Below are positions 20,230-32,911 of a stretch of DNA of 32,911 bases, one piece after another. Each line of letters starts with the position of its first letter. Position 1 is the first letter of the stretch. A program made the position numbers and the translations under genes. Source of the stretch: Candidatus Nomurabacteria bacterium RIFCSPLOWO2_12_FULL_40_42. Lineage in GTDB: Bacteria > Patescibacteriota > Minisyncoccia > Phycocordibacterales > UBA9973. The stretch spans positions 85,057-117,967 of the forward strand of contig MFVS01000008.1 of assembly GCA_001786195.1 (NCBI GenBank), given 5' to 3'. The notes beneath the pieces are model-generated. The model searched no databases. It was not told the DNA's origin and worked only from the letters and a program-made list of their open reading frames with translations.

Positions 20230-20235
20230 GTTGCT

Positions 20236-20244
20236 ATTTTATCA
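20236..20244 (-). promoter_or_regulatory. Extended -10 of the ftsK operon
   Basis: On the minus strand, TG-A-TAAAAT ends exactly 6 nt before the ftsK ATG (20229), predicting leaderless mRNA. Confidence 0.6.
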
Positions 20245-20301
20245 TATTTATCTTACTTTATAAAATTTATAACTTTGCAAACTTTTTACTATAGCAAGTA
20301 A

Positions 20302-20329
20302 TTGACTTGCCATGTCTTTTATATATAAT
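20302..20329 (+). promoter_or_regulatory. Strong promoter of the winged-helix gene, divergent from ftsK
   Basis: TTGACT 20302-20307 and TATAAT 20324-20329 are 16 bp apart. The -10 ends 6 nt before ATG 20336, which decides this start over the in-frame ATG 20312, which lies inside the promoter. Confidence 0.75.
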
Positions 20330-20335
20330 GGACAA

Positions 20336-21115
20336 ATGTTAAAGCTCGGGGAAAATATAAAAGACACATCTTCCCCCTCTCCTTTACCAGGAGAGGGTCG
20401 GGGTGAGGTGGTGTCCTTTACAAAGACAAATAAGCTAATTACTGCAGTATATATGGTAACGGACATAATAGACAAAGAAGAACCCCTTAGGAATAAATTA
20501 AGGACATTGGGGTTGGAAATTCTTTCGGACCCCCCGATAGCAAGGACGGTCCTTGCTATCGGCCAACTGATGTCCTTTTTAGATATCGCTTCGGCGGTCG
20601 GAATTATTTCCGAAATGAATGGCAATATTCTCAAAAAAGAGTTCTTGAAACTAGAGGGGGCTATAAAAGAATCTACAGACGTAAAGCCTAGCTGGTTGGA
20701 AGGGTTTTTATCGGAGCTCCCCCTCCTTTCGGAGGAGGGGAATGAGGGGAGGTCAGACCCCTACCCAGCCTCCCCCTTATCAAGGGGGAGGGGAAATCAT
20801 AAAGGACATACTCATCTTGGTGTCCAAAAGGGAAGCACTTTGCTCAAAGCCATAAAGGACATTCATGCCCCGTATGAAGCGGGAAGCTTTCGTTCGGGGT
20901 TTGATTTATTAAAAAAAGAAAGACGCTATGAAATAACTAATTTTATAAGCAAAAATGGAGGCAGTGCGACGATAACGGACATAAAAAATACAAAACTCAA
21001 CTCTCTAGTCTCTTCCAGCGAAAAAACCCTGCAACGAGAACTGTTGTCTATGATCAAGGACGGTGTCCTTTATAAGACAGGGGAGAAGAGGTGGAGCAGG
21101 TATTTTTTGAAATAA
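20336..21115 (+). CDS. Unknown protein with C-terminal winged helix, heavily invaded by palindromic repeats (259 aa)
   Basis: The C-terminus (RRYEITNFISKNGGSATITDIKNTKLNSLVSSSEKTLQRELLSMIKDGVLYKTGEKRWSRYFLK) is a winged-helix domain of the SMC-ScpB/ArsR kind. The N-terminal half (LITAVYMVTDIIDKEEPLRNKLRTLGLEIL, then SFLDIASAVGIISEMNGNIL) is helical and may be a coiled domain. At least four palindromic repeats are in frame: 20370-20412, 20534-20562, 20719-20795 and 20864-20900. Together they make up roughly a quarter of the gene, yet the frame stays open. Start chosen by the promoter. No family is recognised with certainty. Its divergent promoter faces ftsK. Confidence 0.7.
   Translation: MLKLGENIKDTSSPSPLPGEGRGEVVSFTKTNKLITAVYMVTDIIDKEEPLRNKLRTLGLEILSDPPIARTVLAIGQLMSFLDIASAVGIISEMNGNILKKEFLKLEGAIKESTDVKPSWLEGFLSELPLLSEEGNEGRSDPYPASPLSRGRGNHKGHTHLGVQKGSTLLKAIKDIHAPYEAGSFRSGFDLLKKERRYEITNFISKNGGSATITDIKNTKLNSLVSSSEKTLQRELLSMIKDGVLYKTGEKRWSRYFLK
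20370..20412. repeat. Palindromic repeat P4 in the winged-helix gene
   Basis: The element encodes SSPSPLPGEGRGEVV. Its reverse complement matches 21118-21157 and 32120-32162 (CACCTCA-YCCCAACCCTCTCC type), which are intergenic. Confidence 0.75.
20534..20562. repeat. 29-bp perfect inverted repeat in the winged-helix gene
   Basis: CCGATAGCAAGGAC, one central G, then the exact reverse complement GTCCTTGCTATCGG. It encodes PIARTVLAIG in frame. Confidence 0.8.
20719..20795. repeat. Pair of C/G-rich palindromic repeats in the winged-helix gene
   Basis: A CCCCCTCC-TTTC-GGAGGAGGGG dyad is followed by a TCCCCCTTATCAAGGGGGAG dyad. They encode LPLLSEEGNEGRSDPYPASPLSRGRG in frame and resemble repeats in ftsK. 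Confidence 0.6.
20864..20900. repeat. 37-bp palindromic repeat P7 in the winged-helix gene
   Basis: The same CATGCCCCGT and TTCGGGGT arms and the same total length as 11842-11878, with a different centre. It encodes HAPYEAGSFRSGF in frame. Confidence 0.65.
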
Positions 21116-21117
21116 AA

Positions 21118-21196
21118 CACCTCACCCCAACCCTCTCCTGGAGAGGAGAGGGGGAATTAGCCCCTTCCCCTTCCAGGGGAAGGCGGGGGATGAGGT
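21118..21196. repeat. Two palindromic repeats between the winged-helix gene and element A
   Basis: A P4 copy (CACCTCACCCCAACCCTCTC, with a GGAGAGG arm) runs to 21157. It is followed by CCCCTTCCCCTTCC-AGGGGAAGG and GGGGGATGAGG. No gene is present. Confidence 0.7.
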
Positions 21197-21245
21197 TATA
21201 GGGCTTGCTTTTGAATTAGACTGTGATAACATGGGTATGTGGCGA

Positions 21246-21335
21246 GTTATCTCCCACACCTGTCTTGGCATAGTTCTGACTGTGTCAGAACGTGCTAAAA
21301 GCACAATGCCAAAATAGGTGTGGGAGTTATCCACA
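21246..21335. repeat. Palindromic element A with GTTATC(C) at both ends
   Basis: Outer stem CTCCCACACCT (21251-21261) pairs with AGGTGTGGGAG (21316-21326). Then TTGGCAT (21265-21271) pairs with ATGCCAA (21306-21312). Inside are two hairpins: GTTCTGAC/GTCAGAAC (21273-21291) and GTGCT/AGCAC (21292-21304). GTTATCT precedes the left stem and GTTATCC follows the right one. TTATCCACA at 21327-21335 matches a DnaA box. Confidence 0.8.
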
Positions 21336-21342
21336 TAATACC

Positions 21343-21372
21343 TTGCTCTATTTTAGGGCTATGTATTATAAT
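21343..21372 (+). promoter_or_regulatory. Promoter of the surface-protein gene
   Basis: TTGCTC 21343-21348 and TATAAT 21367-21372 are 18 bp apart. The predicted start near 21379 leaves a leader of about 315 nt before ATG 21695. Confidence 0.5.
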
Positions 21373-21378
21373 GTTCTT

Positions 21379-21694
21379 ATATTTATTTTCCGTTAAGATT
21401 TCGTCGAAAAAATCTTAAAGAAAAATAGATGCCCATTGAAAACTGAATAAGTCCTGAGAGAATTTCTCGAAGGATAAAATGTTTTCAATGTTTAGTTTAT
21501 ATCTGTTCATTATTTTTCGCCTCATCGGCGAATCAGCCGAAGAGGCTGAATTTGTCCTCCACATTATTAGTTATTATTAGCTTATTGTTGGATAAAGAAT
21601 AATGATAGAAAAATTACGCTTTTAGTTTTGCCCAGCCATTAAAAGGGCGGGCAAGTCGAAACTTATTAATGGCGTAGAAAATTAGAAAAAATTT
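21379..21694 (+). other. Long structured 5' leader of the surface-protein gene
   Basis: No ORF of note. Stems: TTAAGATTT/AAATCTTAA (21393-21418); CATTGAAAAC/GTTTTCAATG (21434-21490) with an inner GAGAATTTCTC; TTCGCC/GGCGAA and TCAGCC/GGCTGA in 21517-21553. A candidate H-type pseudoknot near the start uses GCCC 21630-21633 with GGGC 21645-21648 and GCCATTAA 21635-21642 with TTAATGGC 21666-21673. A regulatory or mRNA-stabilising role is inferred. Confidence 0.5.
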
Positions 21695-23857
21695 ATGAGT
21701 AAATTATTAAAATCAAAATTTCTTCTTGGAGTTATGGTTGTAGCGGTTTTGGCTCTCGGAGCTGTTGCAGTTTCTGCAACTAAAGTTTCCGCAGCTACCT
21801 GTTCAATCACATCTACATTAAGATTGGGTTCTACAGGCGCCGAAGTTGTTTGCTTACAGCAATCTCTAGGTGGCCTTACTGCCGATGGTAAATTCGGTCC
21901 TGCGACACAAGCTGCTGTCATCGCTTGGCAGACAAACGAAAATTTGACAGCTGACGGCGTCTTTGGTCCTCGATCAAATGCCGCTTGGATGGCTAATCAA
22001 GGAAACGTAGGAGTCTTCCCAGCAGGTTGTACTTCCGCTGTAGGATACAGCACTACGGTTGGTGGATTGAGATGTGATTCAGGAGTTTCAAATCTTCCAC
22101 CAGGTTGTCAGGCAGGCGATTTGTTCAGCCGAACAAGTGGCGTGTCATGTACAGCTTTGACAAATCTTCCAGCAGGTTGTACTTCAACTGCAGGCTACAG
22201 TCCAACAACTGGCGTAAGATGTGATGGAACTGTTACACCAACACCAACACCGGCTGGTCCTCTAGCGGGAACAGACGGAACAATTGCTGATATGAACACT
22301 CTTTCACAGTATTCTGCCGAAGAAGTTGGCGCTGGACAGAAAGATATTAAAGTTCTTGGAGTTGAAATTGAAGCTTCCAAGGATGGAGATATTGGAATTA
22401 ATTCAATCAAAGTTCGTTTTGACTCAAATGGCAATGCTGCCGCTGACTCAGACCGTATTGAGGATTATCTTAAGTCAATTTCTATCTGGCAAGGAGGAAC
22501 CAAGGTTGGCTCTGCAGATACTTCTGAATTTACAAAAGTAAGCACTGGCCTTTATACAAAGGTTGTTACTTTGTCTGATTCGGTAGTACGCGCAGGCGCT
22601 ACAGAGAAGTTCTATGTGTCTGTTGACGCAGTAAGCAATCTTGATTCAGGCGATATTGATTCGGATTCATGGACGATCGCGCTTGACAATGTTCGTTATG
22701 TTGATGGTTCAGGGGTTGTAACAACTGAGACAGCGCAAATTCCAGCGGATATGGATTGGGATGCGGCAGCTGACGGTATTTCCCTCACTTTTGCCAGTTT
22801 CTCAACCGCAGCTGATACAGAACTTAAGATATCTACGAACAGTACTCCAGGTTCACAGGTTATAAAAGTAAGCACTACTAACGATACAAACAATGTTACT
22901 CTCTTGAAAGGTAAGTTTGTATTGGACGGTACATCCGATGTTTGGTTGGATGAGCTTCCTATAACTCTTACTACGACGGGCGACAGCGTTGATGCGTTGG
23001 CAAGTTCCATTACGCTTGTGCTTGGTGATAAGACTTACACAGAGTCTCTAGGCGCGAACTGTACGACTTCTTGCGCATTGGGTACTGCAAATCCAGTAGT
23101 TACCTTTGACAACCTTGATTACACCATTACTGCCGGCGATACTGTGAACTTCACAGTTAAAGTTGACCTTAATAATATTGAGGAAACTGGTGTTACCGCA
23201 ACTGACTTTGACGCCGGAGACACTCTTCTCGCTTCTTTGACAGCGACAAATCGCGCCGCAATGGTTGTTGAAAACTCTCAAGGTGATTCATTGACAGATG
23301 CTACGGAAAGGACTGGTTCTGCTACTGGTTTGGCTCAAGCATTCTACGCAACGGGAATCCAGGTCGCTCTTGTATCTGTAACTAACTCAGCTGTTAACAA
23401 GGCAACAATAAATGACACTAGCGATAATGCTGATGTTACATTTGTATATGATGTTACCGCCTTCGGCGCTGACATCTATGTTGACGGCACAGTAACAGAA
23501 GATGGTGATGGCACATATGCTGATGGTACGGGTAATAACTTCTACGTTACTCGCGCAGATACGGGCGCTACTGCAGCTGCGCTTACTGATGTTACCGCAT
23601 CTTTAACAACAGACGCAGATGTCGGATCTAACACAACTTGGTTGGTTGTACAAGGAACAACAGAGCGCTTTACTCTATCAGTGAATGTGGCTAACACATT
23701 TACTAACGATGCGGCAAATGACGCTCTTCAATTCCAGACTGCAATCACTTCTATTGGTTGGGATACGACCGCAATCGCGGCTACAACTAATGAATACACA
23801 TTTAACTTAGGTAAGTTCAAGAATGTTCCAGTTACTTTGGGTGAACTTGACGCTTAG
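21695..23857 (+). CDS. Secreted S-layer-like protein with peptidoglycan-binding domain (720 aa)
   Basis: A signal peptide (FLLGVMVVAVLALGAVAVSATKVSA) is followed by a peptidoglycan-binding-1 domain at about 36-105 (LRLGSTGAEVVCLQQSLGGLTADGKFGPATQAAVIAWQ). Three Cys-containing linker repeats of the LPAGCTSxxGYSxxTGxxC type lie at about 110-185, then a long Thr/Asp/Val-rich beta region (TVTLSDSVVRAGATEKFYVSVDAV, and so on) of S-layer or fimbrial style. It is likely an abundant wall-bound surface protein. The long structured leader and the strong terminator T1 directly after the gene fit high, isolated expression. The linker motif reappears in the protein at 31144. ATG has no visible Shine-Dalgarno. 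Confidence 0.85.
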   Translation: MSKLLKSKFLLGVMVVAVLALGAVAVSATKVSAATCSITSTLRLGSTGAEVVCLQQSLGGLTADGKFGPATQAAVIAWQTNENLTADGVFGPRSNAAWMANQGNVGVFPAGCTSAVGYSTTVGGLRCDSGVSNLPPGCQAGDLFSRTSGVSCTALTNLPAGCTSTAGYSPTTGVRCDGTVTPTPTPAGPLAGTDGTIADMNTLSQYSAEEVGAGQKDIKVLGVEIEASKDGDIGINSIKVRFDSNGNAAADSDRIEDYLKSISIWQGGTKVGSADTSEFTKVSTGLYTKVVTLSDSVVRAGATEKFYVSVDAVSNLDSGDIDSDSWTIALDNVRYVDGSGVVTTETAQIPADMDWDAAADGISLTFASFSTAADTELKISTNSTPGSQVIKVSTTNDTNNVTLLKGKFVLDGTSDVWLDELPITLTTTGDSVDALASSITLVLGDKTYTESLGANCTTSCALGTANPVVTFDNLDYTITAGDTVNFTVKVDLNNIEETGVTATDFDAGDTLLASLTATNRAAMVVENSQGDSLTDATERTGSATGLAQAFYATGIQVALVSVTNSAVNKATINDTSDNADVTFVYDVTAFGADIYVDGTVTEDGDGTYADGTGNNFYVTRADTGATAAALTDVTASLTTDADVGSNTTWLVVQGTTERFTLSVNVANTFTNDAANDALQFQTAITSIGWDTTAIAATTNEYTFNLGKFKNVPVTLGELDA

Positions 23858-23892
23858 TTGATTGTTGATTAGTTTTAGCTAACTTCTTTTCT

Positions 23893-23946
23893 TTGGTCGA
23901 ATAAAGAATTGAATCAAAAAAGCACTCAGAAATGGGTGCTTTTTTG
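23893..23946 (+). terminator. Terminator module T1
   Basis: GTCGAATAAAGAATTGAATC precedes the hairpin AAAAAAGCAC (23916-23925)/GTGCTTTTTT (23936-23945). First of the recurring module copies. Confidence 0.9.
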
Positions 23947-23989
23947 CTGTTGATTGCTTAAGTTTTTTATTTGTTCTATTATTAAGAGT

Positions 23990-24388
23990 ATGAATGAAAA
24001 AGAAGTACAAGACGCAATTAATTACTGGATGGAGATTGCTAAGAGAGATTATGATACCATGCTTGCTCTTTTTAACTCTGGACGCTATCCCGAAAGCCTT
24101 TTTTTCGGTCATATCATAATTGAAAAGATTATAAAAAGTTTGGTGACAAAAGAAACACGGGAACAGCCTCCATATACTCATGACCTTCTTCGCTTGGCTG
24201 AATTGGCAAAACTTGATCTAGTTAGCGAGGAAATGGATTTTTTAGATATGTTGAACGATTTTAACATTCGTGCCAGATACCCGGAACATAAATTAAATCT
24301 TTATAAAAAATGTGATAAAGCTTTTGCGGAGAAAAACTTGGGAATTATAAAGGAATTATACGACAAACTATGTCTAAAATTGAAATAA
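23990..24388 (+). CDS. HEPN-domain protein of a HEPN-MNT toxin-antitoxin pair (132 aa)
   Basis: The product is all-helical: YWMEIAKRDYDTMLALFNSGRYPESLFFGHIIIEKIIKSLV, and NIRARYPEHKLNLYKKCDK near 92-110. This matches HEPN (PF05168-type) proteins. R94/R96 and H100 resemble the HEPN Rx(4-6)H ribonuclease motif, although spacing fits only R94-x5-H100. Its 3' end overlaps the MNT gene by 19 bp, the classic HepT-MntA order. In such pairs the MNT enzyme usually neutralises the HEPN RNase by nucleotidylation. ATG 23990 is chosen over TTG 23954 because TATTAT (23977-23982) ends 7 nt before it. Confidence 0.8.
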   Translation: MNEKEVQDAINYWMEIAKRDYDTMLALFNSGRYPESLFFGHIIIEKIIKSLVTKETREQPPYTHDLLRLAELAKLDLVSEEMDFLDMLNDFNIRARYPEHKLNLYKKCDKAFAEKNLGIIKELYDKLCLKLK

Positions 24389-24684
24389 AAAAAATAATCA
24401 GAAAATATGGAGAAAATCTTAAAAAAGAAAGGTTTCCTTTTTCTAATATTTATCTGTTTGGATCGTATGCGAAAGGAAATTACAATAAGGATAGCGATAT
24501 TGATATTGCTATTATTTCCGATATTTCTACCGACAATGTGGAAAAAAATCGGTTATCTCTCTGGAAAGCTCGCAGAAATGTAGATTATCGGATAGAGCCG
24601 CATTTTTTCACTGAAAAAGATTTTGCGAATAATAGTGATCCGTTGGCTTACGAAATCAGGAAAACCGGTTTTATAATTTTATAG
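24370..24684 (+). CDS. Minimal nucleotidyltransferase (MNT) partner of the HEPN protein (104 aa)
   Basis: GSYAKGNYNKDSDIDIAII at residues 31-49 is the Pol-beta NTase signature GS-x10-D-x-D (D43, D45). A third acidic residue is expected in the strand carrying RIEPHFF. Length fits MntA-type enzymes. The gene overlaps its HEPN partner by 19 bp, which couples translation. By analogy with HepT-MntA it probably adds AMP to the HEPN protein and silences it; which partner is toxic cannot be read from the sequence alone. Terminator T2 closes the unit 56 bp downstream. Confidence 0.82.
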   Translation: MSKIEIKKIIRKYGENLKKERFPFSNIYLFGSYAKGNYNKDSDIDIAIISDISTDNVEKNRLSLWKARRNVDYRIEPHFFTEKDFANNSDPLAYEIRKTGFIIL

Positions 24685-24740
24685 AGGTTATGAAATCGAA
24701 ATAATAAATAGCTTCTAGATGCCTGCCCGCCCTGGGAGGG

Positions 24741-24790
24741 GTCGAATAAAGAATTGAATCAAAAAAGCACTCAGAAATGAGTGCTTTTTT
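24741..24790 (+). terminator. Terminator module T2
   Basis: GTCGAATAAAGAATTGAATC followed by AAAAAAGCAC (24761-24770)/GTGCTTTTTT (24781-24790). It closes the HEPN-MNT unit. Confidence 0.9.
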
Positions 24791-24800
24791 GTTTTTTGGA

Positions 24801-24886
24801 TTCTCCTCTTGAGGAGTACCCTTTAGGGGGAGGTGGACAGAATTTATCCACCCCGGCTTCCAGCCACCCCTCAAGAGGGGAATAAT
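24801..24886. repeat. Intergenic repeat P5, copy 1 (about 86 bp)
   Basis: Contains AGTACCCTTTAGGGGGAGG, a GGTGGA/TCCACC hairpin and a CCCCTCAAGAGGGG dyad. Other copies are at 25668-25752 and 29356-29442. Confidence 0.85.
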
Positions 24887-24916
24887 ACACCGTGGTTGCA
24901 AGTTTTGTTTGAAGTA

Positions 24917-24925
24917 TGGTATGAT
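24917..24925 (+). promoter_or_regulatory. Extended -10 of the ParD/RelE-type operon
   Basis: TG-G-TATGAT ends 6 nt before ATG 24932. TTGCAA at 24896-24901 is an 18-bp-spaced -35 candidate. Confidence 0.65.
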
Positions 24926-24931
24926 GGCACT

Positions 24932-25168
24932 ATGACTACGATAACGATACCAATTAAAGAATATAAAGAATCAATCCAGATACAAAAGAGCATTTTGTCT
25001 CGCTTGGATTTGCTACAAAAGGCCGTTTTTGAGAATTCAAAATATTATTACGATATTAATCCTTCTTTGTTGAAACGTTACGAAAAAATATCTCTTGATT
25101 TAGATAAAGGTAAAGGGAAAAAATTTTCATCTTTTTCTTCGTTTAAGAAGTATTTAAAAGATTTATAG
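24932..25168 (+). CDS. Putative antitoxin of a RelE/ParE-type module (78 aa)
   Basis: The product starts MTTITIPIKEYKESIQIQKSI, a short beta strand then helix, as in ribbon-helix-helix or Phd-like antitoxins. The tail, with an exposed basic helix (SFSSFKKYLKDL), would wrap a toxin. It has no strong family match by eye. It lies 10 bp upstream of a RelE/ParE-fold toxin, and this position supports the antitoxin call. ATG 24932 is fixed by the -10 ending 6 nt before it. Confidence 0.7.
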   Translation: MTTITIPIKEYKESIQIQKSILSRLDLLQKAVFENSKYYYDINPSLLKRYEKISLDLDKGKGKKFSSFSSFKKYLKDL

Positions 25169-25178
25169 AGATTCGAAT

Positions 25179-25463
25179 ATGGCAGAACAAATAACTTATA
25201 AACTTATAACCCCCATCGAATTTGAAGTTATTTTAAAGAAACTAAAACAAAAAAAGCCCGATGTTCTTAAAATCCTTGAAAAGAAAATAGAGAAAGTTTT
25301 GCGAGAACCAATGTTGGGCAAGCCGCTTAGGAATACATTGAGAAATTACAGAAGGGTCCATGTCGACCCCTTTGTATTACTTTATGAAATCAGAATGCTG
25401 GAAGTCAGACTTATGGATTTTGATCATCACGATAAAATCTACAAAAAATACAAGATTCTGTAG
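25179..25463 (+). CDS. RelE/ParE-superfamily toxin (94 aa)
   Basis: The order of elements fits the RelE/ParE fold: two N-terminal helices (FEVILKKLKQKKPDVLKILEKKIEKVL), then PMLGKPLRNTLRNYRRVHVDPFVLLYEI, and a final strand RLMDFDHHDKIYKKY. The GxPLRxxL-xxYRRxHV block is typical of mRNA-cleaving YafQ/RelE relatives. The C-terminal HHDKIYKK provides basic/His residues for RNA cleavage in related toxins. Ribosome-dependent mRNA cleavage is the likely action. Terminator T3 follows 164 bp downstream, after a short non-coding stretch. Confidence 0.82.
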   Translation: MAEQITYKLITPIEFEVILKKLKQKKPDVLKILEKKIEKVLREPMLGKPLRNTLRNYRRVHVDPFVLLYEIRMLEVRLMDFDHHDKIYKKYKIL

Positions 25464-25607
25464 CTCTGCCAATACGCCTTAAAAAGTATTCCTCCACTAC
25501 CTTTCAAAAGTTGAAAGGTGTGCAGGTAGAAAAAACTTAGCTTTCTAGATGCCTGTCCGCCCTGGTCGCCTGTGGCGCCGCCGAAGGCGGGTAAACCTTG
25601 GGAGGGG

Positions 25608-25656
25608 TCGAATATCTAGTAGCAACAAAAAAGCACTCAGAAATGGGTGCTTTTTT
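25608..25656 (+). terminator. Terminator module T3
   Basis: A diverged GTCGAAT head precedes AAAAAAGCAC (25627-25636)/GTGCTTTTTT (25647-25656). Confidence 0.85.
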
Positions 25657-25667
25657 GCGGTTTGGAT

Positions 25668-25752
25668 TCTCCTCTTCCCGAGTACCCTTTAGGGGGAGGT
25701 GGACAGAATTTATCCACCCCGGCTTCCAGCCACCCCTCAAGAGGGGAATAAT
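25668..25752. repeat. Intergenic repeat P5, copy 2
   Basis: Nearly identical to 24801-24886; differs mainly at CTCTTCCCGAG versus CTCTTGAGGAG. Confidence 0.85.
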
Positions 25753-25786
25753 ACACCGTGGTTGCAAGTTTTGTTTGGGGTGTGGT

Positions 25787-25860
25787 ACCCGGGTAGTGAG
25801 ACGGGGTAGTAGGGTATCTCACTACCCCGTGAGACTTGCAAAGCTCTACTACCGGGTGGT
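25787..25860. mobile_element. Hairpin insertion of 74 bp inside a promoter, with 5-bp direct repeats
   Basis: Relative to copy 1 of the unit, 74 bp are added between the -35 and -10. GTGGT is present at both edges (25782-25786 and 25856-25860). The insert forms an inner ACGGGGTAGT/ACTACCCCGT stem (25801-25830) and an outer CCCGG(G)TAGT/ACTACCGGG stem. This looks like a small palindromic mobile element. Confidence 0.65.
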
Positions 25861-25871
25861 ATGATGGAAAT

Positions 25872-26231
25872 ATGGAAAAGGATATAAAAAATTTAATAAA
25901 ATCTGTGGATTTAATTTCTAAAACAACTTTAAAAATTCTTGAAACAATGGCTACCAAAGAAGAGTTAAATGTTGTCAAAAAAGATTTGAGTGTTGTCAAA
26001 AAAGATTTGAGTGTTGTCAAAAAAGATGTTTCCGTACTCAAGACTGATGTTTCTGATCTCAAAACCGATCAAAAATCTTTCAGAACTGAAACTCGAGAAA
26101 ATTTTAACAGGTTAGAAAAAAATCTTAAAGAAAACGAAGAAAGTGTCGGAGCTGTAGTGGCTGATTATCATCCACACATAATTGCACTGGAAGAAAAAGT
26201 TTTCGGCTCCTCAACTCTCGCTGAATCATAA
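25872..26231 (+). CDS. Coiled-coil protein, paralog 1 (119 aa)
   Basis: The central region repeats VVKKDLS three times at the DNA level (21-bp tandem repeats, 25974-26036), followed by VLKTDVSDLKTDQKSF. This is a heptad pattern expected to form a long coiled coil. The C-terminal part, ENEESVGAVVADYHPHIIALEEKVFG, is shared with paralog 2 at 32255. There is no signal peptide, so it is probably cytoplasmic. The 5' region contains SVDLISKTTLKILETMATKEEL, also shared. TG-G-TATGAT ends 6 nt before ATG 25872. The function is unknown; it might tether or oligomerise a partner. Terminator T4 follows. Confidence 0.8.
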   Translation: MEKDIKNLIKSVDLISKTTLKILETMATKEELNVVKKDLSVVKKDLSVVKKDVSVLKTDVSDLKTDQKSFRTETRENFNRLEKNLKENEESVGAVVADYHPHIIALEEKVFGSSTLAES

Positions 26232-26235
26232 AAGT

Positions 26236-26288
26236 GTCGAATAAAGAATTGAATCAAAAAAGCACCGCGTCAGACGCGGTGCTTTTTT
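26236..26288 (+). terminator. Terminator module T4
   Basis: GTGTCGAATAAAG head, then a 15-bp perfect stem starting AAAAAAGCACCGCGT with loop CAG. The stem is longer than in the other copies. Confidence 0.9.
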
Positions 26289-26298
26289 GCGTGTTGGT

Positions 26299-26363
26299 AT
26301 CGTATCAAATGGTTGCATCAATCGTATCAAAATGATATGATTAGAGGGTTAGAATGATACGAT
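26299..26363 (+). promoter_or_regulatory. Promoter and three operator-like sites of the HTH-Fic gene
   Basis: TTGCAT 26313-26318 and TATGAT 26336-26341 are 17 bp apart, with TG at 26333. ATCGTATCA occurs at 26299-26307 and 26321-26329, and inverted (TGATACGAT) at 26355-26363, immediately before ATG 26365. The spacing suggests repression by a DNA-binding protein, probably the gene's own HTH product. Confidence 0.7.
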
Positions 26364-26364
26364 T

Positions 26365-27438
26365 ATGGATAAATTAAATGATAGACAACTTAATATTCTA
26401 AAAGAAATAAAATTGAACGAAGCTTTTTCTTCTTCAGATATTTTGGGTTTAATAAACAAAAAACAAAAAGTTTCTTTAGTAACAATAAAACGCGACTTGG
26501 ATTATTTGACTGATTTTGGATATCTTGAAAGAAAAGGCGGAGGACGCTCTACCGTGTATCAAAAAACAATCAAGGGGACTTTGTTTTCTCCAGCCAATCT
26601 TTCCGAATATGATAATCTAGAACCAGATCAGAGGAAAGGAAACAGTAGTTTTAATTTTCGCTTGTTTGAGGAATTTCCTCTCAGTATTTTTTCTGAAGAT
26701 GAAAAGAAAATTCTCGATTCTGCTACGGTTCAATATGAAAAAAAAATAAAAAAAACAACGCAGACAATTCATGCAAAAGAATTGGAACGTTTTATCATTG
26801 AATTGTCTTGGAAATCCTCAAAGATTGAAGGCAATACTTATACTTTATTAGATACCGAACGTTTGATTCGCGAAGGAATTCCAGCCAAAGGCCATACGGA
26901 GAATGAGACAACAATGATTCTAAACCACAAAAAAGCTTTTTCTTTTATCTTGAATAATATAGAAAATTTAGAGAAAAGCGGAGTCACGGTTGCTTTTTTA
27001 GAAAAGGTGCATGAAATAATTGTTGAAAAATTAGGTGTGTCTCGTGGTATTAGGGACGGGCTTGTTGGAATCATTGGCACAAAATATAAACCGCTTGATA
27101 ACAAATATCAAGTAAAGGAAGCCCTAGAATCTCTTTGTAAGTTGGTTAATAAGATGGAAAATGTCTACAGTAGCGCCTTGACTCTTTTGGTCGGTCTCTC
27201 TTACATCCAACCATTTGAGGACGGCAATAAACGTACCGCTCGCTTGCTCTGTAATGCCATTCTTTTGTCAAAAAAATGCGCGCCATTATCATATCGCAGT
27301 ATTGATGAAGATACCTATAAAAAATCAATTTTAGTTTTTTATGAAGAAAATTCCATGATTCCTATGAAAGAAATATTTATGGAGCAATATCTTTTTTCAA
27401 CCCAGAACTATTTGGTTAATACGCCCAGCCCGCATTAG
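26365..27438 (+). CDS. HTH-Fic protein with Gln in place of the catalytic His (357 aa)
   Basis: The N-terminal 75 residues form a DeoR-like winged helix (NDRQLNILKEIKLNEAFSSSD, SLVTIKRDLDYLTDFGYLERKGGG). A Fic domain follows with the class II inhibitory motif SSKIEGN (151-157). The active-site loop at 282-290 reads QPFEDGNKR, so the position of the canonical His is Gln and GNGR is GNKR. AMPylation by the usual mechanism is therefore doubtful. The three ATCGTATCA-type sites in its promoter suggest it is an autoregulator using a Fic-fold sensor domain. Terminator T5 follows. Confidence 0.85.
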   Translation: MDKLNDRQLNILKEIKLNEAFSSSDILGLINKKQKVSLVTIKRDLDYLTDFGYLERKGGGRSTVYQKTIKGTLFSPANLSEYDNLEPDQRKGNSSFNFRLFEEFPLSIFSEDEKKILDSATVQYEKKIKKTTQTIHAKELERFIIELSWKSSKIEGNTYTLLDTERLIREGIPAKGHTENETTMILNHKKAFSFILNNIENLEKSGVTVAFLEKVHEIIVEKLGVSRGIRDGLVGIIGTKYKPLDNKYQVKEALESLCKLVNKMENVYSSALTLLVGLSYIQPFEDGNKRTARLLCNAILLSKKCAPLSYRSIDEDTYKKSILVFYEENSMIPMKEIFMEQYLFSTQNYLVNTPSPH

Positions 27439-27490
27439 CTACGCTTCAAGCGTTGGCTGGCAGGCTTAAAAAGTACAAATTCTTTTCTTT

Positions 27491-27541
27491 GGTCGAATAA
27501 AGAATTGAATCAAAAAAGCACTTAGCAATGGGTGCTTTTTT
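27491..27541 (+). terminator. Terminator module T5
   Basis: GTCGAATAAAGAATTGAATC, then AAAAAAGCAC (27512-27521)/GTGCTTTTTT (27532-27541). Confidence 0.9.
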
Positions 27542-27566
27542 GCGGTTGCTTGTTTTGTTTAGGTTG

Positions 27567-27575
27567 TGGTATACT
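27567..27575 (+). promoter_or_regulatory. Extended -10 of the second RelE-type operon
   Basis: TG-G-TATACT ends 6 nt before ATG 27582. TTGCTT 27546-27551 is 18 bp upstream. Confidence 0.6.
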
Positions 27576-27581
27576 GTGGAT

Positions 27582-27875
27582 ATGGTTACATTAAGTATTC
27601 CACAAGGATTAATAAAGGACGGGTTCGTCGTTTTGCCTCGTCGAGAATATGAGGACCTTTTGCGTGCCAAACAGGTTAATGATATAGTGGTAAAAAGAGA
27701 TAAATCTTTCAAGGTACCAAAGAAACACGAAAAATTCTATGATGACTTGGATAAAGAATTGACTGAATCATTGCGAGAAATTAAAGAGGGTAAAGTTTCA
27801 GATATTTTTAATACATACGAAGAGGGAATTAAATTCTTAAATTCAAGAAAAAAATTTATACCAAATGAAGCATAG
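27582..27875 (+). CDS. Antitoxin of a second RelE-type module (97 aa)
   Basis: MVTLSIPQGLIKDGFVVLPRREYEDLLRAKQV has the strand-helix start of Phd/AbrB-like antitoxins (VVLPRREYEDLL is a common antitoxin signature). The charged C-terminal half (EKFYDDLDKELTESLREIKEGK) would neutralise the toxin. The 3' end overlaps the toxin gene by 11 bp, giving coupled translation. The start is fixed by the extended -10, 6 nt upstream. DNA-binding and autoregulation are inferred from the family. Confidence 0.8.
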   Translation: MVTLSIPQGLIKDGFVVLPRREYEDLLRAKQVNDIVVKRDKSFKVPKKHEKFYDDLDKELTESLREIKEGKVSDIFNTYEEGIKFLNSRKKFIPNEA

Positions 27876-28110
27876 ATTTTCAAAGGGTTTTTTAGATGAA
27901 TTAGATAGTTTCCCAATTCTAATTGAAAAAAAGTTTCAGAAACAGCTTAAATTTTTACTTTCTGACATACGATATCCTTCTTTGCGAGCCAAGAAATATA
28001 TTGAATCAAAAGGTATTTGGCAGGCAAGAGTAGATGATAATGTTAGATTTTATTTTAAAATTGAAGGAGATACTTATGTTCTTATTAATATAAAATATCA
28101 TCCTAAATAG
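27865..28110 (+). CDS. RelE-superfamily toxin (81 aa)
   Basis: HRFSKGFLDELDSFPILIEKKFQKQLKFLL gives two N-terminal helices. PSLRAKKYIESKGIWQARVDDNVRFYFKIEGDTYVLINI is the RelE beta sheet with the typical PSLR...W-A-R-V-x-x-x-x-R-F-Y-F run and the final strand (INIKYHPK). Length is right for the family. mRNA cleavage on the ribosome is the probable action. It overlaps the antitoxin by 11 bp. A further unknown gene follows after 16 bp. Confidence 0.82.
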   Translation: MKHRFSKGFLDELDSFPILIEKKFQKQLKFLLSDIRYPSLRAKKYIESKGIWQARVDDNVRFYFKIEGDTYVLINIKYHPK

Positions 28111-28126
28111 TCCCTCGCGGTTTAAA

Positions 28127-28489
28127 ATGAAAAAGATTCCTAATATGACTAATTCAAAATATAAAATTTTAAATACCAATAATTTATTGAACGATGGGTG
28201 GGCTTTTGCTACGGTAAATAATCGTTTTGCAGAAATTCATTTTGCAAAGGGTTTTGGTATTTGGGGTCATGCGTATGAAGACAAATCTTTTTTCAAAACA
28301 AAAAAAGAAAAAGACATGATAAAAAAGGATCTTAAAAAATATCACTTTACTTATCGCAATAGATTTTATTTTGATAAAATTAATAAACTAAAAACAAAAG
28401 TCCCCGATATAAAAAAAGTTTTTCCGGAATCAAAAAATAACAAAAAATTTTATTCACAAGATAAGGTTTTTAAAAAGCTCGGGCTTTAA
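28127..28489 (+). CDS. Hypothetical protein (120 aa)
   Basis: The protein is basic and aromatic-rich. Its core, GWAFATVNNRFAEIHFAKGFGIWGHAYEDKSFFKTKKEKDMIKKDL, alternates like a small alpha/beta domain. The tail KKYHFTYRNRFYFDK is strongly basic, which suggests nucleic-acid binding, but this is not proven. An alternative start is ATG 28145. It lies 16 bp after the RelE-type toxin and may belong to its transcript. No known family is recognised. Confidence 0.6.
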   Translation: MKKIPNMTNSKYKILNTNNLLNDGWAFATVNNRFAEIHFAKGFGIWGHAYEDKSFFKTKKEKDMIKKDLKKYHFTYRNRFYFDKINKLKTKVPDIKKVFPESKNNKKFYSQDKVFKKLGL

Positions 28490-28622
28490 AATTTTTATTT
28501 TTAGTTAGAAATATGAAAAAATCCAATAGACTTTCATTCAATGGTTATTGTAAGCTAGAATCTAGCCCCTAGCCCCTAGAAAGGGTTATCCCCCACACCT
28601 TTCGTTTTATTGCTTCAGATCG

Positions 28623-28628
28623 TATAAT
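28623..28628 (+). promoter_or_regulatory. -10 hexamer of the GIY-YIG gene
   Basis: TATAAT ends 6 nt before ATG 28635, predicting leaderless mRNA. Confidence 0.6.
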
Positions 28629-28634
28629 TACAAC

Positions 28635-28889
28635 ATGTATTATGTGTATGTTTTAAAAAGTCTAAAGGATGAAAAACTGTATGTTGGTTCAACAAATGAT
28701 CTGAAGCGAAGACTTTCGGAACATAATAATGGGCTTAATCGTTCAACAAAAGCGAGGCGTCCTTTTCAAGTTCGATATTATGAAGCTTATACTAGCGAGT
28801 ATGATGCTCGAAAAAGAGAATATTCTCTTAAAAAAGACGGCAAAGCGCTTGGTCAGTTAAAGGTACGAATCTCCGAAAGTATTCTATAA
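28635..28889 (+). CDS. GIY-YIG nuclease-fold protein (84 aa)
   Basis: YYVYVLKSLKDEKLYVGSTNDLKRRLSEHN matches the GIY-YIG core: YVY for GIY, YVG (16-18) for YIG, the helix Arg (R25/R26) and H30. YYEAYTSEYDARKREYSLKK supplies the conserved Glu/Lys region of the UvrC/Slx1-like small family. These proteins are single-domain nucleases; some are linked to repair, others to mobile DNA. Its place between terminal repeats favours the second role. The C-terminus ends in the right inverted repeat. Confidence 0.85.
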   Translation: MYYVYVLKSLKDEKLYVGSTNDLKRRLSEHNNGLNRSTKARRPFQVRYYEAYTSEYDARKREYSLKKDGKALGQLKVRISESIL

Positions 28890-28997
28890 AATGAAAGGTG
28901 TAGGGGTTATCCACACCCCCTGTTGTGTCTTAATTTTCTTTATTATTGTATATTTGTAATGTTAGTTTTATTAATATTTAAAATTTTAAAAGATATG

Positions 28998-29354
28998 ATG
29001 TCTAAAAAAAATATTGCGCTAGCGATTGTAATAGTTTTGGTTGTGGCAGGAGTTGCTTTTTTGATTAATAAAAAGAATAGAGAACAGGGTTATTCTGTCG
29101 TTTATCTGACAAGCGGGGAGGTATATGTGGGTAAATTGACCACTATTCCTGATTTACAGCTTAGAGATAGCTATATTTTACAGGTTACAAAAGACGAAAA
29201 GGATCCAACCAAGAACAATTTTCAGCTTCAACCTATAAAGGACGCTCTCTGGGCGCCGAAAGTGCTGCATTTCGTAAAGGACAACATTGTCTTTTACGGT
29301 CCACTGATGTCCAATAGCAAAATTGCTGAAACTTTAGCTGCGCAGGGGAAGTAA
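28998..29354 (+). CDS. Small single-pass membrane protein (118 aa)
   Basis: MSKKNIALAIVIVLVVAGVAFLINKKN is a membrane anchor. The extracellular part, GYSVVYLTSGEVYVGKLTTIPDLQLRDSYILQV, KDPTKNNFQLQPI and HFVKDNIVFYGPLMSNSKI, is a small beta-rich domain. This pattern is seen in CPR membrane proteins without an assigned function. In-frame starts further upstream (TTG/ATG before 28995) exist; ATG 28998 is preferred because the protein then starts with the KK-plus-helix layout. The gene follows the GIY-YIG element and precedes the P5 repeat. Confidence 0.7.
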   Translation: MSKKNIALAIVIVLVVAGVAFLINKKNREQGYSVVYLTSGEVYVGKLTTIPDLQLRDSYILQVTKDEKDPTKNNFQLQPIKDALWAPKVLHFVKDNIVFYGPLMSNSKIAETLAAQGK

Positions 29355-29355
29355 A

Positions 29356-29442
29356 TTCTCTTCTTGAGGAGTACCCTTTAGGGGGAGGTGGACAGAATTT
29401 ATCCACCCCGGCTTTCAGCCACCCCTCAAGGAGGGGAATAAT
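29356..29442. repeat. Intergenic repeat P5, copy 3
   Basis: Matches 24801-24886 and 25668-25752, but lacks the shared terminator upstream and promoter downstream. Confidence 0.85.
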
Positions 29443-29447
29443 TCGGA

Positions 29448-29555
29448 GTTATCCACGCATATCCCCTTATAGGGTAATTAGCATTAATGACCCTTATAAT
29501 AAAGGCACAGAAAAACCGATTACCCCGTGAGGGGATATGCGTGGAGTTATCCACA
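29448..29555. repeat. Palindromic element C with GTTATCC at both ends
   Basis: A 14-bp perfect stem, CCACGCATATCCCC (29453-29466)/GGGGATATGCGTGG (29531-29544), encloses GGGTAAT (29472-29478)/ATTACCC (29519-29525). GTTATCC lies at 29448-29454 and 29546-29552. The right end includes TTATCCACA (29547-29555). It has no gene inside. Confidence 0.8.
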
Positions 29556-29583
29556 TATTTTGTGTTGTAATAAATAATAGTGT

Positions 29584-29634
29584 TGTATAATTAAGAGTAT
29601 GAAAAAGTGTCGAATACTTTTTTATGCGCTTTGA
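29584..29634 (+). other. Promoter-start-terminator relict (gene-less cassette?)
   Basis: TATAAT (29586-29591), then TTAAGAGTATGAA as before the HEPN gene, and immediately AAAGTGTCGAATA as in terminator T4. The frame from ATG 29599 is only 11 codons plus stop. AAAAAGT (29602-29608)/ACTTTTT (29616-29622) forms a short hairpin. 29635-29726 holds no other gene or clear signal. Confidence 0.5.
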
Positions 29635-29726
29635 TTATCTAGCAGTGTATTTCCTTAAGGGCATTGTTAGGTAATTGAAGAAAATATTATTAATGTGTCT
29701 TTATTATTATTAAAATTAATTTAATT

Positions 29727-31058
29727 ATGAAAAATATATTTAAAGGTTTAGGTTTGGGTTTTGTGGCTTTGGCTCTTGTTGTAGTCGGCGCAAGTCAAGC
29801 GAGCGCGGTTGTTACGCTTACTAACTTAGCGGTGAATACGGCTGCAGGTGACGCTTTCGTTTTGGGCGCTGCCAATACCACTGGTTCAATCACCATTGGA
29901 TCGGCTACACATACAGGATCGACAACGCTTTCTTCAGGAACTGTCACAGGCACAACAACGACATCTGCTTTCCCTATTTTAGCGGATGCAGTGACAACAG
30001 GAACAGCGTTATATATGACAGCTGATGCTTTGACTACTGGAGAGGGAATTCTTGTTGATCACACCACTACAGTTATTGCTGATGGTGGATCGCTTGCTCG
30101 CTTGTCATCAACTTCGATTGATACGGGCACAACTACTGGAAATTTGCTTGATTTAAGTTCCACAGCATCAACTGCCGGAACACAAATTCTCGGTACATTT
30201 TCAGGATTGACTACTGGTATTGGGCAATCTGTTGTTGTTGATGCTTTGACGACTGGAACAGCGTTGAACTTGAACAATACTTCAGGCGTTATGACAACCA
30301 ACGGAGAGATGCTCAATGTATCAGCGGCGGCTGCTACAACTTCCACAGGACTTGTAAGAATTACAGGCGCGGCTCTTACTACTGGCGCGGCTCTTCAAGT
30401 TACCACGGCTGGCGCTGCTATGCTTACCACTGGTGAGGCTATCGATGTCGTACTTGGCGCTAACACAGTCGGTGCCGGTATAACTATTACTGGAACTGGC
30501 ACATACACGGGGGTAGGCGCTGCGGATGGTTACCTTAATATCGTTGGTAACGGACTTACAACAGGTCACGCTGCGAAAATATCCACGACTGCTATTACTA
30601 CTGGCACAGGGCTCTTAATCACCGGTTCTGCTGTTACAACAATGACTAACGCAGGATCATACTTAAGATTCAGCGATGGCACTACCGATGTCTTCCGAGT
30701 CGGTACCAATGGTCACCTTATAAGCGCTTCGGCTGATGTCGCTGGCGGTGAGCCTGCGCTTACCGTTTCCGGTGGCTTTACAGCAACCGCCGAAACTGGA
30801 GGTAATGGAGTAGGCACAGCTACAGACTCAAGAGGGCGAGTTTCATTCACTTCAGACGGTAATGCAGGGACTGCGATATTAACCTTTGGTACGGCATATG
30901 CTACTGCTCCTGTTTGTGTGATTTCTCCTGCAGACGCAGAAGCTCAAGCCAATGTGGATTTCGCGTTTGTTACGACTTCTGCAACAGCAATGACCATCAA
31001 CTACATCACCGGTACAGCTGTAACTGCAGATCTTTGGAACTACATCTGTATGGAATAA
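29727..31058 (+). CDS. Secreted Thr/Gly-rich repeat surface protein (443 aa)
   Basis: A signal peptide (LGLGFVALALVVVGASQASA) is followed by about 300 residues of irregular repeats built around xALTTGxxLxIT (for example DALTTGEGILVDHTT, DALTTGTALNLNN, AALTTGAALQVTT). This suggests a stacked beta-solenoid. The C-terminal domain (GTATDSRGRVSFTSDGNAGTAILTFGTAY...PVCVISPADAEA...YICME) resembles tail-fibre-like C-terminal domains. It is probably an exported fibre or surface protein. No Shine-Dalgarno is visible before ATG 29727. Its function is unknown. Confidence 0.8.
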   Translation: MKNIFKGLGLGFVALALVVVGASQASAVVTLTNLAVNTAAGDAFVLGAANTTGSITIGSATHTGSTTLSSGTVTGTTTTSAFPILADAVTTGTALYMTADALTTGEGILVDHTTTVIADGGSLARLSSTSIDTGTTTGNLLDLSSTASTAGTQILGTFSGLTTGIGQSVVVDALTTGTALNLNNTSGVMTTNGEMLNVSAAAATTSTGLVRITGAALTTGAALQVTTAGAAMLTTGEAIDVVLGANTVGAGITITGTGTYTGVGAADGYLNIVGNGLTTGHAAKISTTAITTGTGLLITGSAVTTMTNAGSYLRFSDGTTDVFRVGTNGHLISASADVAGGEPALTVSGGFTATAETGGNGVGTATDSRGRVSFTSDGNAGTAILTFGTAYATAPVCVISPADAEAQANVDFAFVTTSATAMTINYITGTAVTADLWNYICME

Positions 31059-31143
31059 TCTTAGTTTTCTTCTTTAAGAGAAATACTACGGAAAATTATT
31101 CATAACAGGTCGGTTCTGTAGTTAGTGAAAAACAAAAAACAAA

Positions 31144-32070
31144 ATGATTAAAAAATTAAAAATTGGTATTTTCTTCACAGCGTTGTCTTTGATGGCTGTG
31201 GTGGGAGTACAAAATGCAAATGCGCAAGCTTTAGATTGGGACGCTGATAGTAATGTTACTGTCAATAGCATGGACTTTATTATCAGGTCTGGTTCAGCGG
31301 CTACGCAGGTGGATGTAAATGCAAACACTCTTGTTGTGTTAGTTCCAGCCGCAAGCACATTTACCCTTGCTTCTGCCGGTGGCTTTACGCTTACGAATAC
31401 TGATGACGCGGACCCGGCTGTGGTTACAGCGCAAACATGTTCAAACGGCACAAGCACGGTAGCTTACACTGGAACGGGGGCATCGGTTACTTTTACTCCG
31501 ACTTCTATTGTAGCGTGTAGTGGAGGTGGAGGTGGAGGAGGTGGAGGAGGAAGTTCTTCTTCTACTCCAGCAACCCCAGCTGTACCTGCAACTCCAGCGA
31601 CGCCAGGAGAAATTCCTGGATGTGGAAATAGGACGACTGGTTTCAGTTCGTCTTCAGGGGTGTCTTGTGTTGGAAACACAGCTACAACTCCTGCTATTCC
31701 TGCTGCACCAGCGGTAATTCCTGGATGTGGAAATAGGACGACTGGTTTCAGTTCGTCTTCAGGGGTGTCTTGTGTTGGAAATTCTGGCGCAACACCTTCA
31801 ATTACACCTTCGCTTACGCCAGGCGCTGGAGTAACTTGGTACAACTTCGGCACTGCGACTCTCAAAAACGGGAGCCGAGGCGAAGCGGCTAAAGAGCTTC
31901 AAAGATTCTTGAATGCTAAATTGAATCTTGGGCTCGTGGTTGATGGTATTATCGGTCCGAAAACTATTGCTGTTATCAAGACATGGCAAAGAGCCAATGG
32001 CTTGGTAGCTGACGGTCTCATCGGTCCGAAAACAAAGACCGAAATGAATCGTCAAGCAATGGCGCAGTAG
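31144..32070 (+). CDS. Secreted protein with Cys-linker repeats and C-terminal peptidoglycan-binding domain (308 aa)
   Basis: A signal peptide (IGIFFTALSLMAVVGVQNANAQA) precedes a beta-rich N-terminal domain, a poly-Gly stretch near 130 and an Ala/Thr/Pro linker. Two identical IPGCGNRTTGFSSSSGVSCVGN repeats follow, and then a peptidoglycan-binding-1 domain at about 240-305 (LKNGSRGEAAKELQRFLNAKLNLGLVVDGIIGPKTIAVIKTWQ). The Cys repeats are cousins of those in the protein at 21695 (LPAGC...GYS..TG..C). The protein is probably wall-anchored. The paired repeats are identical over 65 bp. Terminator T6 follows. Confidence 0.85.
   Translation: MIKKLKIGIFFTALSLMAVVGVQNANAQALDWDADSNVTVNSMDFIIRSGSAATQVDVNANTLVVLVPAASTFTLASAGGFTLTNTDDADPAVVTAQTCSNGTSTVAYTGTGASVTFTPTSIVACSGGGGGGGGGGSSSSTPATPAVPATPATPGEIPGCGNRTTGFSSSSGVSCVGNTATTPAIPAAPAVIPGCGNRTTGFSSSSGVSCVGNSGATPSITPSLTPGAGVTWYNFGTATLKNGSRGEAAKELQRFLNAKLNLGLVVDGIIGPKTIAVIKTWQRANGLVADGLIGPKTKTEMNRQAMAQ
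31612..31676 (+). repeat. 65-bp direct repeat, copy 1, encoding a Cys linker
   Basis: Identical to 31711-31775. Encodes IPGCGNRTTGFSSSSGVSCV. Perfect identity suggests recent duplication or gene conversion. Confidence 0.85.
31711..31775 (+). repeat. 65-bp direct repeat, copy 2, encoding a Cys linker
   Basis: See copy 1 at 31612-31676. Confidence 0.85.
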
Positions 32071-32119
32071 GAATTACTTTCCACCTTAACAAGGGGGAAA
32101 ATGAAAGGGGGTTCTTAAA

Positions 32120-32162
32120 TTCACCTCATCCCAACCCTCTCCTTGTAAAGGAGAGGGGGAAT
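32120..32162. repeat. Palindromic repeat P4, intergenic copy
   Basis: CACCTCATCCCAACCCTCTC followed by the matching GGAGAGGGGGAATAG arm; the same family as in the winged-helix gene at 20370-20412. Confidence 0.75.
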
Positions 32163-32174
32163 AGAAAGCCAAAC

Positions 32175-32204
32175 AAAAAGGCACTCGGTAATGGGTGCTT
32201 TTTT
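32175..32204 (+). terminator. Terminator module T6 (hairpin only)
   Basis: AAAAAGGCACTCGG-TAATGGGTGCTTTTTT. The GTCGAATAAAG head is absent in this copy. Confidence 0.85.
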
Positions 32205-32218
32205 GGTTAATATTTGGC

Positions 32219-32248
32219 TTGCATTAAAAATATAACTTGTGATATACT
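32219..32248 (+). promoter_or_regulatory. Promoter of coiled-coil paralog 2
   Basis: TTGCAT 32219-32224 and TATACT 32243-32248 are 18 bp apart, with TG at 32240. The -10 ends 6 nt before ATG 32255. Confidence 0.65.
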
Positions 32249-32254
32249 TTTCTT

Positions 32255-32659
32255 ATGAATGAGAAGAAAGTGACAAATGAAGATTTAGCAAAGTTAATCA
32301 GCAATTTATCGGTAACTACTGATGGCAACACAAAAGCTATTGATTTAATTTCTAAAACAACCTTAAAAATTCTTGAAACAATGGCGACTAAAGAAGAGTT
32401 AAACATTGTAAAAAAAGATGTTTCCGGTATTAAGACAGAACTTGTAGGAGTCAAAAAAGATGTTTCCGTACTCAAGACTGATGTTTCTGATCTCAAAACC
32501 GATCAAAAATCTTTCAGAACTGAAACTCGAGAAAGTTTTAATAGGTTAGAAAAAAATCTTAAAGAAAACGAAGAAAGTGTCGGGGCCGTAGTGGCTGATT
32601 ATCATCCACACATAATTGCGTTGGAAGAAAAAGTTTTCGGTTCTTCAACATTGGAATAA
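32255..32659 (+). CDS. Coiled-coil protein, paralog 2 (134 aa)
   Basis: The heptad region reads NIVKKDVSGIKTELVGVKKDVSVLKTDVSDLKTDQKSF. The 3' 195 bp match paralog 1 (25872) at about 95% by eye, and the 5' segment AIDLISKTTLKILETMATKEEL is shared too. The heptad count differs from paralog 1, so repeat-number change is the main difference. The start follows the extended -10 by 6 nt. There is no export signal and no known domain. Terminator T7 closes the unit. The duplication appears recent. Confidence 0.8.
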   Translation: MNEKKVTNEDLAKLISNLSVTTDGNTKAIDLISKTTLKILETMATKEELNIVKKDVSGIKTELVGVKKDVSVLKTDVSDLKTDQKSFRTETRESFNRLEKNLKENEESVGAVVADYHPHIIALEEKVFGSSTLE

Positions 32660-32670
32660 AAATTCTATTG

Positions 32671-32720
32671 GTCGAATAAAGAATTGAAACAAAAAAGCGC
32701 TCAGCAATGGGCGCTTTTTT
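32671..32720 (+). terminator. Terminator module T7
   Basis: GTCGAATAAAGAATTGAAAC, then AAAAAAGCGC (32691-32700)/GCGCTTTTTT (32711-32720). Relative to T1-T5 both arms changed (GCAC/GTGC to GCGC/GCGC), so pairing is preserved. Confidence 0.9.
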
Positions 32721-32758
32721 GTGGTTGGCTTAATAGCTCATATTAAAACATCAGTGAA

Positions 32759-32911
32759 CTAAATCTGTATTTGCTTTGCTTCCATAGCGAGCCGATTAGC
32801 TTTTAATATATCACTTTTAATTTTAATTAGCTTGTCATGTAGGGTTTTTGGATTCAATTTTTCGTGTTCAATTTTTAATTTTGTTTTAATTTCTTCAGAC
32901 ACCCTTTCATT
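32759..32911 (-). CDS. C-terminal fragment of an unknown helical protein (start outside window)
   Basis: On the minus strand the frame is open from the window edge and stops at TAG (32761-32759), leaving 50 residues: VSEEIKTKLKIEHEKLNPKT and then LHDKLIKIKSDILKANRLAM. It is charged and helical, with no recognised family. It is convergent with terminator T7. Confidence 0.55.
   Translation of the reverse strand, partial: NERVSEEIKTKLKIEHEKLNPKTLHDKLIKIKSDILKANRLAMEAKQIQI

Follow-up and report, generated by a model that had tools for sequence, protein, structure and literature searches.

A 317-bp element of Patescibacteria with terminal inverted repeats and a GIY-YIG nuclease gene as its only gene

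Can an 84-aa GIY-YIG nuclease account for the movement of a DNA element in which it is the only encoded protein? The locus that raises this question lies in a window of 32,911 nucleotides, by which we mean the whole stretch of DNA that was analysed (positions 85057-117967 on contig 8 of a 767-kb genome from a Nomurabacteria-like member of the CPR/Patescibacteria). A sequence-only reading of the window had proposed a compact mobile element with inverted ends, a proposal that the present analysis supports. We consider it likely that this element belongs to an IS/MITE-like family in which a GIY-YIG nuclease is the lone encoded enzyme and would cut both its own terminal inverted repeats (TIRs) and the target. 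Mobility of the family is well supported by sequence comparison, and from the same comparisons we infer a role for the enzyme in movement.

A GIY-YIG gene enclosed by inverted repeats

The element occupies positions 28590-28906 on the plus strand (317 bp from TIR to TIR, with TTAT at both sides), and these boundaries were fixed by comparison with other copies. Its left TIR, CCCCCACACCTTTCGTTTTAT (28590-28610, plus strand), returns as the inverted copy ATAAAATGAAAGGTGTAGGGG at 28886-28906 on the minus strand, where it and the gene's stop codon overlap. With 21 bp and 2 mismatches between the arms, the inverted ends are real. Target-site duplications of TTAT flank them at 28586-28589 on the left and at 28907-28910 on the right; CCCCCACACC elements as a rule have duplications of 4 bp, and the right copy forms the first bases of an intact target, TTATCCACA. 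The host target box, GTTATCCACA (28906-28915, plus strand), is located upstream of the next gene, and its G at 28906 doubles as the final base of the element.

There is room inside the 317 bp for no ORF besides the GIY-YIG gene, and its product stands, as had been proposed, as the sole candidate enzyme within the element. The gene (28635-28889, plus strand) encodes 84 aa with intact catalytic residues (Pfam PF01541, 68.8 bits). The GIY-YIG domain and its catalytic Tyr, Tyr, Arg, His and Glu are all present, and residues Y3, Y5, Y16, G18, R26, H30 and E62 are invariant among 43 homologues. GIY-YIG type domains were the only Pfam matches of this ORF, and the domain search found neither a known transposase fold nor an HUH Y1 transposase in it. 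The protein was modelled with AlphaFold2 at a pLDDT of 91.7, and the solved folds nearest to it are UPF0213 (1zg2) and Slx1. Between copies, dN/dS is mostly 0.06-0.15 and reaches 0.24; the nuclease is under purifying selection. A probable -10 box, TATAAT (28623-28628, plus strand), is separated from the start codon by 6 bp, and a similar TATAAT is found in the close copies L037-L039 and L067. Because of this short distance to the ATG, the gene is probably leaderless, which fits its earlier description.

Target duplications and the GTTATCC repeat

The sequence-only reading had taken two copies of GTTATCC (28585-28591 and 28906-28912) as the bounds of the element. One GIY-YIG ORF is indeed present between them; as a boundary, the repeat did not hold up. 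The left copy is composed of a target G, TTAT and the first CC of the TIR, and the right copy of the last TIR G, TTAT and the target CC, so that GTTATCC amounts to the target duplication with its adjoining bases, and other copies of the element duplicate other 4-5 bp targets. GTTATCC was rejected as the element's end, since it belongs to the target and, relative to the gene, can point either way. Its count was likewise rejected as evidence by itself, being near chance (6 in the window against 3.2 expected, with at least 6 in 8 of 100 shuffles).

Across the GIY-YIG family, the target duplication is 4-5 bp long. Other copies have duplicated TTGA (L042, L180), TTTA (L044, L041, L172), TATGA (L166, L168), TCAAA (L037) and TGTG (L043), and among close copies the GTTATCCACA box occurs in both orientations to the gene (L036; L039, L066, L067). 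These other duplications and the two orientations of the box argue that GTTATCCACA is a preferred target and not a border of the element. Its core is abundant in this genome, where pattern searches showed GTTATCCAC to be strongly enriched: it occurs 33 times, and the reversed pattern once.

Boxes of the GTTATCCACA type also occur at 21326-21335 and 29546-29555 in the window and at L007, L015, L023, L028 and L034. They are intergenic at 25 of 30 sites, and in many of them a -10-like hexamer follows some 38-42 bases downstream (12 hits at 38-42); the box may be a promoter-linked element of fixed spacing in these bacteria. Within the box lies TTATCCACA, a textbook DnaA-box sequence.

Targets used repeatedly include GTTATCCACA boxes and, in one gene, the start ATGCAATTCAAAG. 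GIY elements of the TCCCGTTAGAGAT family are situated at the start codon of one gene in several genomes (L070, L072, L093, L094, L096 and L104). That gene, possibly PrgI-like, begins ATGCAATT(C/T)AAAG, and insertion duplicates its ATG.

Inverted repeats accompany the gene in related genomes

GIY-YIG homologues were present in 121 of 149 related genomes, with close homologues of the window gene in Nomurabacteria and in other Patescibacteria. TIRs were sought in ranges extended past the start and stop codons, since many arms overlap those codons. Neighbouring ORFs served as the control; a control of mismatched flanks was too lenient because families share TIRs. Strong TIRs lay tight around the gene at 57 of 93 GIY-YIG loci as opposed to 7 of 356 neighbouring ORFs (p 3e-39), and in a second set of loci, which overlaps the first at several of them, TIRs surrounded 35 of 79 GIY-YIG loci and 4 of 677 other ORFs (p 9e-34), p-values that overstate independence because the loci are related by descent. 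Direct repeats of at least 5 bp were found at the TIR edges in 46% of cases, compared with 3.7% in shuffled flank pairs. About 40% of the GIY-YIG ORFs sampled had no clear TIR, and many of these may represent host genes or copies that have decayed.

Inverted repeats close to genes are often terminators, and an ordinary fixed gene flanked by terminator-like repeats would resemble this arrangement at first sight. However, the arms pair across the gene instead of beside it and are absent from control ORFs; moreover, duplications are seen, and close copies mostly have flanks that are unrelated to each other. Together with the empty site of a close relative described below, which refutes it for that relative, these observations make this explanation very improbable.

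The sequence-only reading had named copies of the gene without these ends as evidence against itself. The outcome was mostly favourable to it: nine other copies, 73-88% identical, were compared, of which eight have ends of the CACACC type and the ninth (L040) has no clear pair. Close copies have CCCCCACACC ends in common, whereas distant families have other TIRs, the families being CCCCCACACCT (that of the window element), CCCGCACACTTA, TCCCGTTAGAGAT, ACCCTGTTAAAT, TCCCGTAGTAGA and TCCCGTACGAAAT. We found that the more similar the proteins are, the more similar are their TIRs (Mantel rho 0.44, null sd 0.034), with a mean TIR similarity of 0.97 at protein identity above 80% and of 0.35 at 45-55%. 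TIR sequences thus diversify together with the GIY-YIG protein, a co-descent that does not by itself prove recognition.

The ACCCTGTTAAAT family comprises a GIY-YIG copy and gene-less copies (L002 and L028, on contigs 32 and 22 of the window's own genome, and L149). On contig 14 of the same genome, a GIY-YIG gene (L003) lies amid tRNA genes, beside an apparent truncated tRNA-Leu start. A phage origin was considered and set aside, as matches in viral contigs number only two.

Gene-less hairpins with the same ends

Two further structures in the window, elements A and C, had been suggested as gene-less relatives. Element A (21251-21326, 76 bp) has the ends CTCCCACACC...GGTGTGGGAG and a TTAT duplication at 21247-21250 and 21327-21330, and is on these grounds a gene-less relative of the GIY-YIG element; the GGTGT(G/A)GGG core noticed in both is the TIR itself. 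Element C (29447-29555, exact ends ambiguous) occupies a duplicated copy of the same target box (GAGTTATCCAC) and is a mobile hairpin, of which two more copies lie at other loci of genome G112, each within a TTATCCAC box that is duplicated. Its ends, however, are different, and descent from a GIY family by loss of the gene is not supported, no matching TIR being found among the families sampled; we assign it to another hairpin family.

Another gene-less hairpin of the window's own genome is found on contig 5, at 10664. Among 38 gene-less CCCCCACACC hairpins, a duplication of at least 4 bp was present in 31, compared with 28% of shuffled cases, and it was exact in 25, with the consensus YWWR. 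Sixteen of these 25 duplications are non-palindromic and therefore true direct repeats; the other 9 are palindromic TATA and could therefore be longer TIRs instead. Inverted pairs of TCCCGTTAGAGAT recur at spacings of about 36, 67 and 107 bp in gene-less form and of about 265 bp with the gene, and the reversed control pattern matched once in 149 genomes.

Of the 9 genomes that carry this protein clade, 6 contain gene-less hairpins, as do 12 of 140 others (p 9e-5). One genome, G116, has 8 such hairpins and zero GIY-YIG matches at E 1e-3, as would be expected if MITE-like hairpins were moved by a transposase encoded elsewhere and the GIY-YIG gene were their cargo, a passenger or a regulator. To our knowledge, strand transfer by a GIY-YIG enzyme is also without precedent, which fits the same explanation. 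Against it, each TIR family has its own GIY-YIG subfamily with which it diversifies, GIY-YIG is the only gene that recurs within the elements, and purifying selection acts on the protein. We therefore regard a cargo role as rather unlikely, and prefer a nuclease that acts on its own element.

Some hairpins touch coding sequence. In a cysteine-desulfurase-like gene, one is inserted at the end (L128, genome G037) and another near the start (L130, on contig 5 of the window's own genome), and the L128 hairpin provides the final codons and the stop of that gene. Near-identical short ORFs or sequences between genes at 24671-24901 and 25537-25767 of the window, on the minus strand, are probably another interspersed repeat family.

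Unrelated loci and an empty site

Ends conserved at fixed loci, the other observation named as counting against a mobile element, were mostly not seen. Close copies lie mostly at unrelated loci; one pair, L039 and L067, does coincide at a common locus, as expected from shared ancestry. Two pairs, L038/L066 and L037/L041, adjoin homologous DNA in opposite orientation. The GIY element of L038 is interrupted by a hairpin some 30 bp long, with TCATA duplicated, and L036, L037 and L039 are uninterrupted at this place.

We found an empty site for a relative 82% identical to, and distinct from, the window copy. The flanks of L166 and L168 are 90.5% identical; L166 has the element with TATGA twice, and L168 has a single TATGA and no element. 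At the insertion site of L168's own element, L166 has an apparent decayed remnant. The neighbourhood of the window element is not conserved among relatives: 11 of them have a homologue of the next gene with no element beside it, and the intergenic DNA is too diverged to align.

A homing endonuclease gene, spreading into homologous sites by break and repair, would account for the GIY-YIG fold, for a weak resemblance to the endonucleases of group I introns and for recurrent targets such as the GTTATCCACA boxes and the gene start ATGCAATTCAAAG. However, homing does not produce TIRs, target duplications, gene-less hairpins or many unrelated targets, and the single TATGA at the empty site counts against it for one copy. 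No intron surrounds the gene, and no intron families were found in the window at 20000-32911 with E up to 1. GIY-YIG genes in CPR rRNA have also been judged to lie outside homing (PMC11270868). Homing is thus an improbable explanation, and a transposon-like family remains the preferred one. Together, the comparisons show a gene carried between TIRs, a 4-5 bp duplication, movement to unrelated places and gene-less MITE-like copies.

A possible mechanism and its known counterparts

In the mechanism that we propose, the 84-aa nuclease would recognise its own TIRs and a target resembling them; the target TTATCCACA closely resembles TTAT-CCCCCACACC. It would cut both element and target with a stagger of 4-5 nt, and host polymerase and ligase would join the cut ends, fill-in of the stagger giving the target duplication. 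The likeliest substrate would be the junction at the foot of an extruded hairpin (cruciform), because the TIRs can fold a single strand into a long hairpin and because the nuclease resembles Slx1, a cutter of branched DNA. Gene-less hairpins would be mobilised in trans. We know of no GIY-YIG enzyme that joins DNA strands, and a partner, either host ligase and repair or an unseen recombinase, would therefore be needed. We are evenly divided on the fullest version of this proposal, in which the 84-aa nuclease alone moves the 317-bp element and the gene-less hairpins by cutting extruded hairpins, as an autonomous transposon of a new class in the CPR whose copies with other TIRs have entered rRNA and RNase P RNA genes.

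The family resembles insertion sequences and MITEs in its TIRs, its short target duplication of fixed size, its one ORF and its gene-less derivatives with the same ends. It differs from insertion sequences in that its encoded enzyme is an 84-aa GIY-YIG nuclease and does not belong to the DDE, HUH, serine, tyrosine or DEDD transposases. At 317 bp, the element has roughly half the length of the smallest IS known to us. In Penelope-like retroelements, and in group I introns that have one, a GIY-YIG nuclease opens the target; unlike them, the present element has neither a reverse transcriptase nor an intron. By sequence and fold the nearest GIY-YIG nucleases are UPF0213 and Slx1, the latter differing as a member of a larger complex, and we know of no TIR element for either. 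In RAYT/REPIN systems, short palindromic repeats, most of them outside genes, form two-sided hairpins, and a single matching nuclease gene lies between such repeats (PMC2817692, PMC3116915). The present family is similar in its palindromic, mostly extragenic hairpins and its single matching nuclease gene between repeats; unlike RAYT, an HUH Y1 transposase, it has a GIY-YIG enzyme, near-perfect TIR ends and duplicated targets. Searches of the open-access literature yielded no prior description of a GIY-YIG TIR element.

If a role of the enzyme were shown, the element would represent a new class beyond the IS/MITE kind, a nuclease family would be added to the enzymes that move DNA, and the size limit of autonomous elements would be lowered, this one being among the smallest self-mobile elements known. 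It would also explain the abundance of small GIY-YIG genes in CPR genomes.

Copies within RNA genes

GIY-YIG copies were found inside 16S (L062, L204, L197) and 23S (L117, L175) rRNA genes and inside RNase P RNA (L054), which L187, L201 and L239 abut or enter. The rRNA copies bear TIRs, as intergenic copies do. GIY-YIG ORFs have been described in 16S and 23S insertions of CPR bacteria that are not introns, and their spread was left unexplained (PMC11270868); the three 16S and two 23S copies found here are similar to these, and differ in that TIRs are shown for them. Insertion of TIR-bearing copies into RNA genes is thus a possible explanation for the intron-less GIY-YIG genes of CPR rRNA (PMC11270868). 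Since TIRs also pair in RNA, insertion at the helix of a structured RNA could just lengthen that helix. A further copy, L049, adjoins a T-box-like leader (30.5 bits, under the cut-off of the family).
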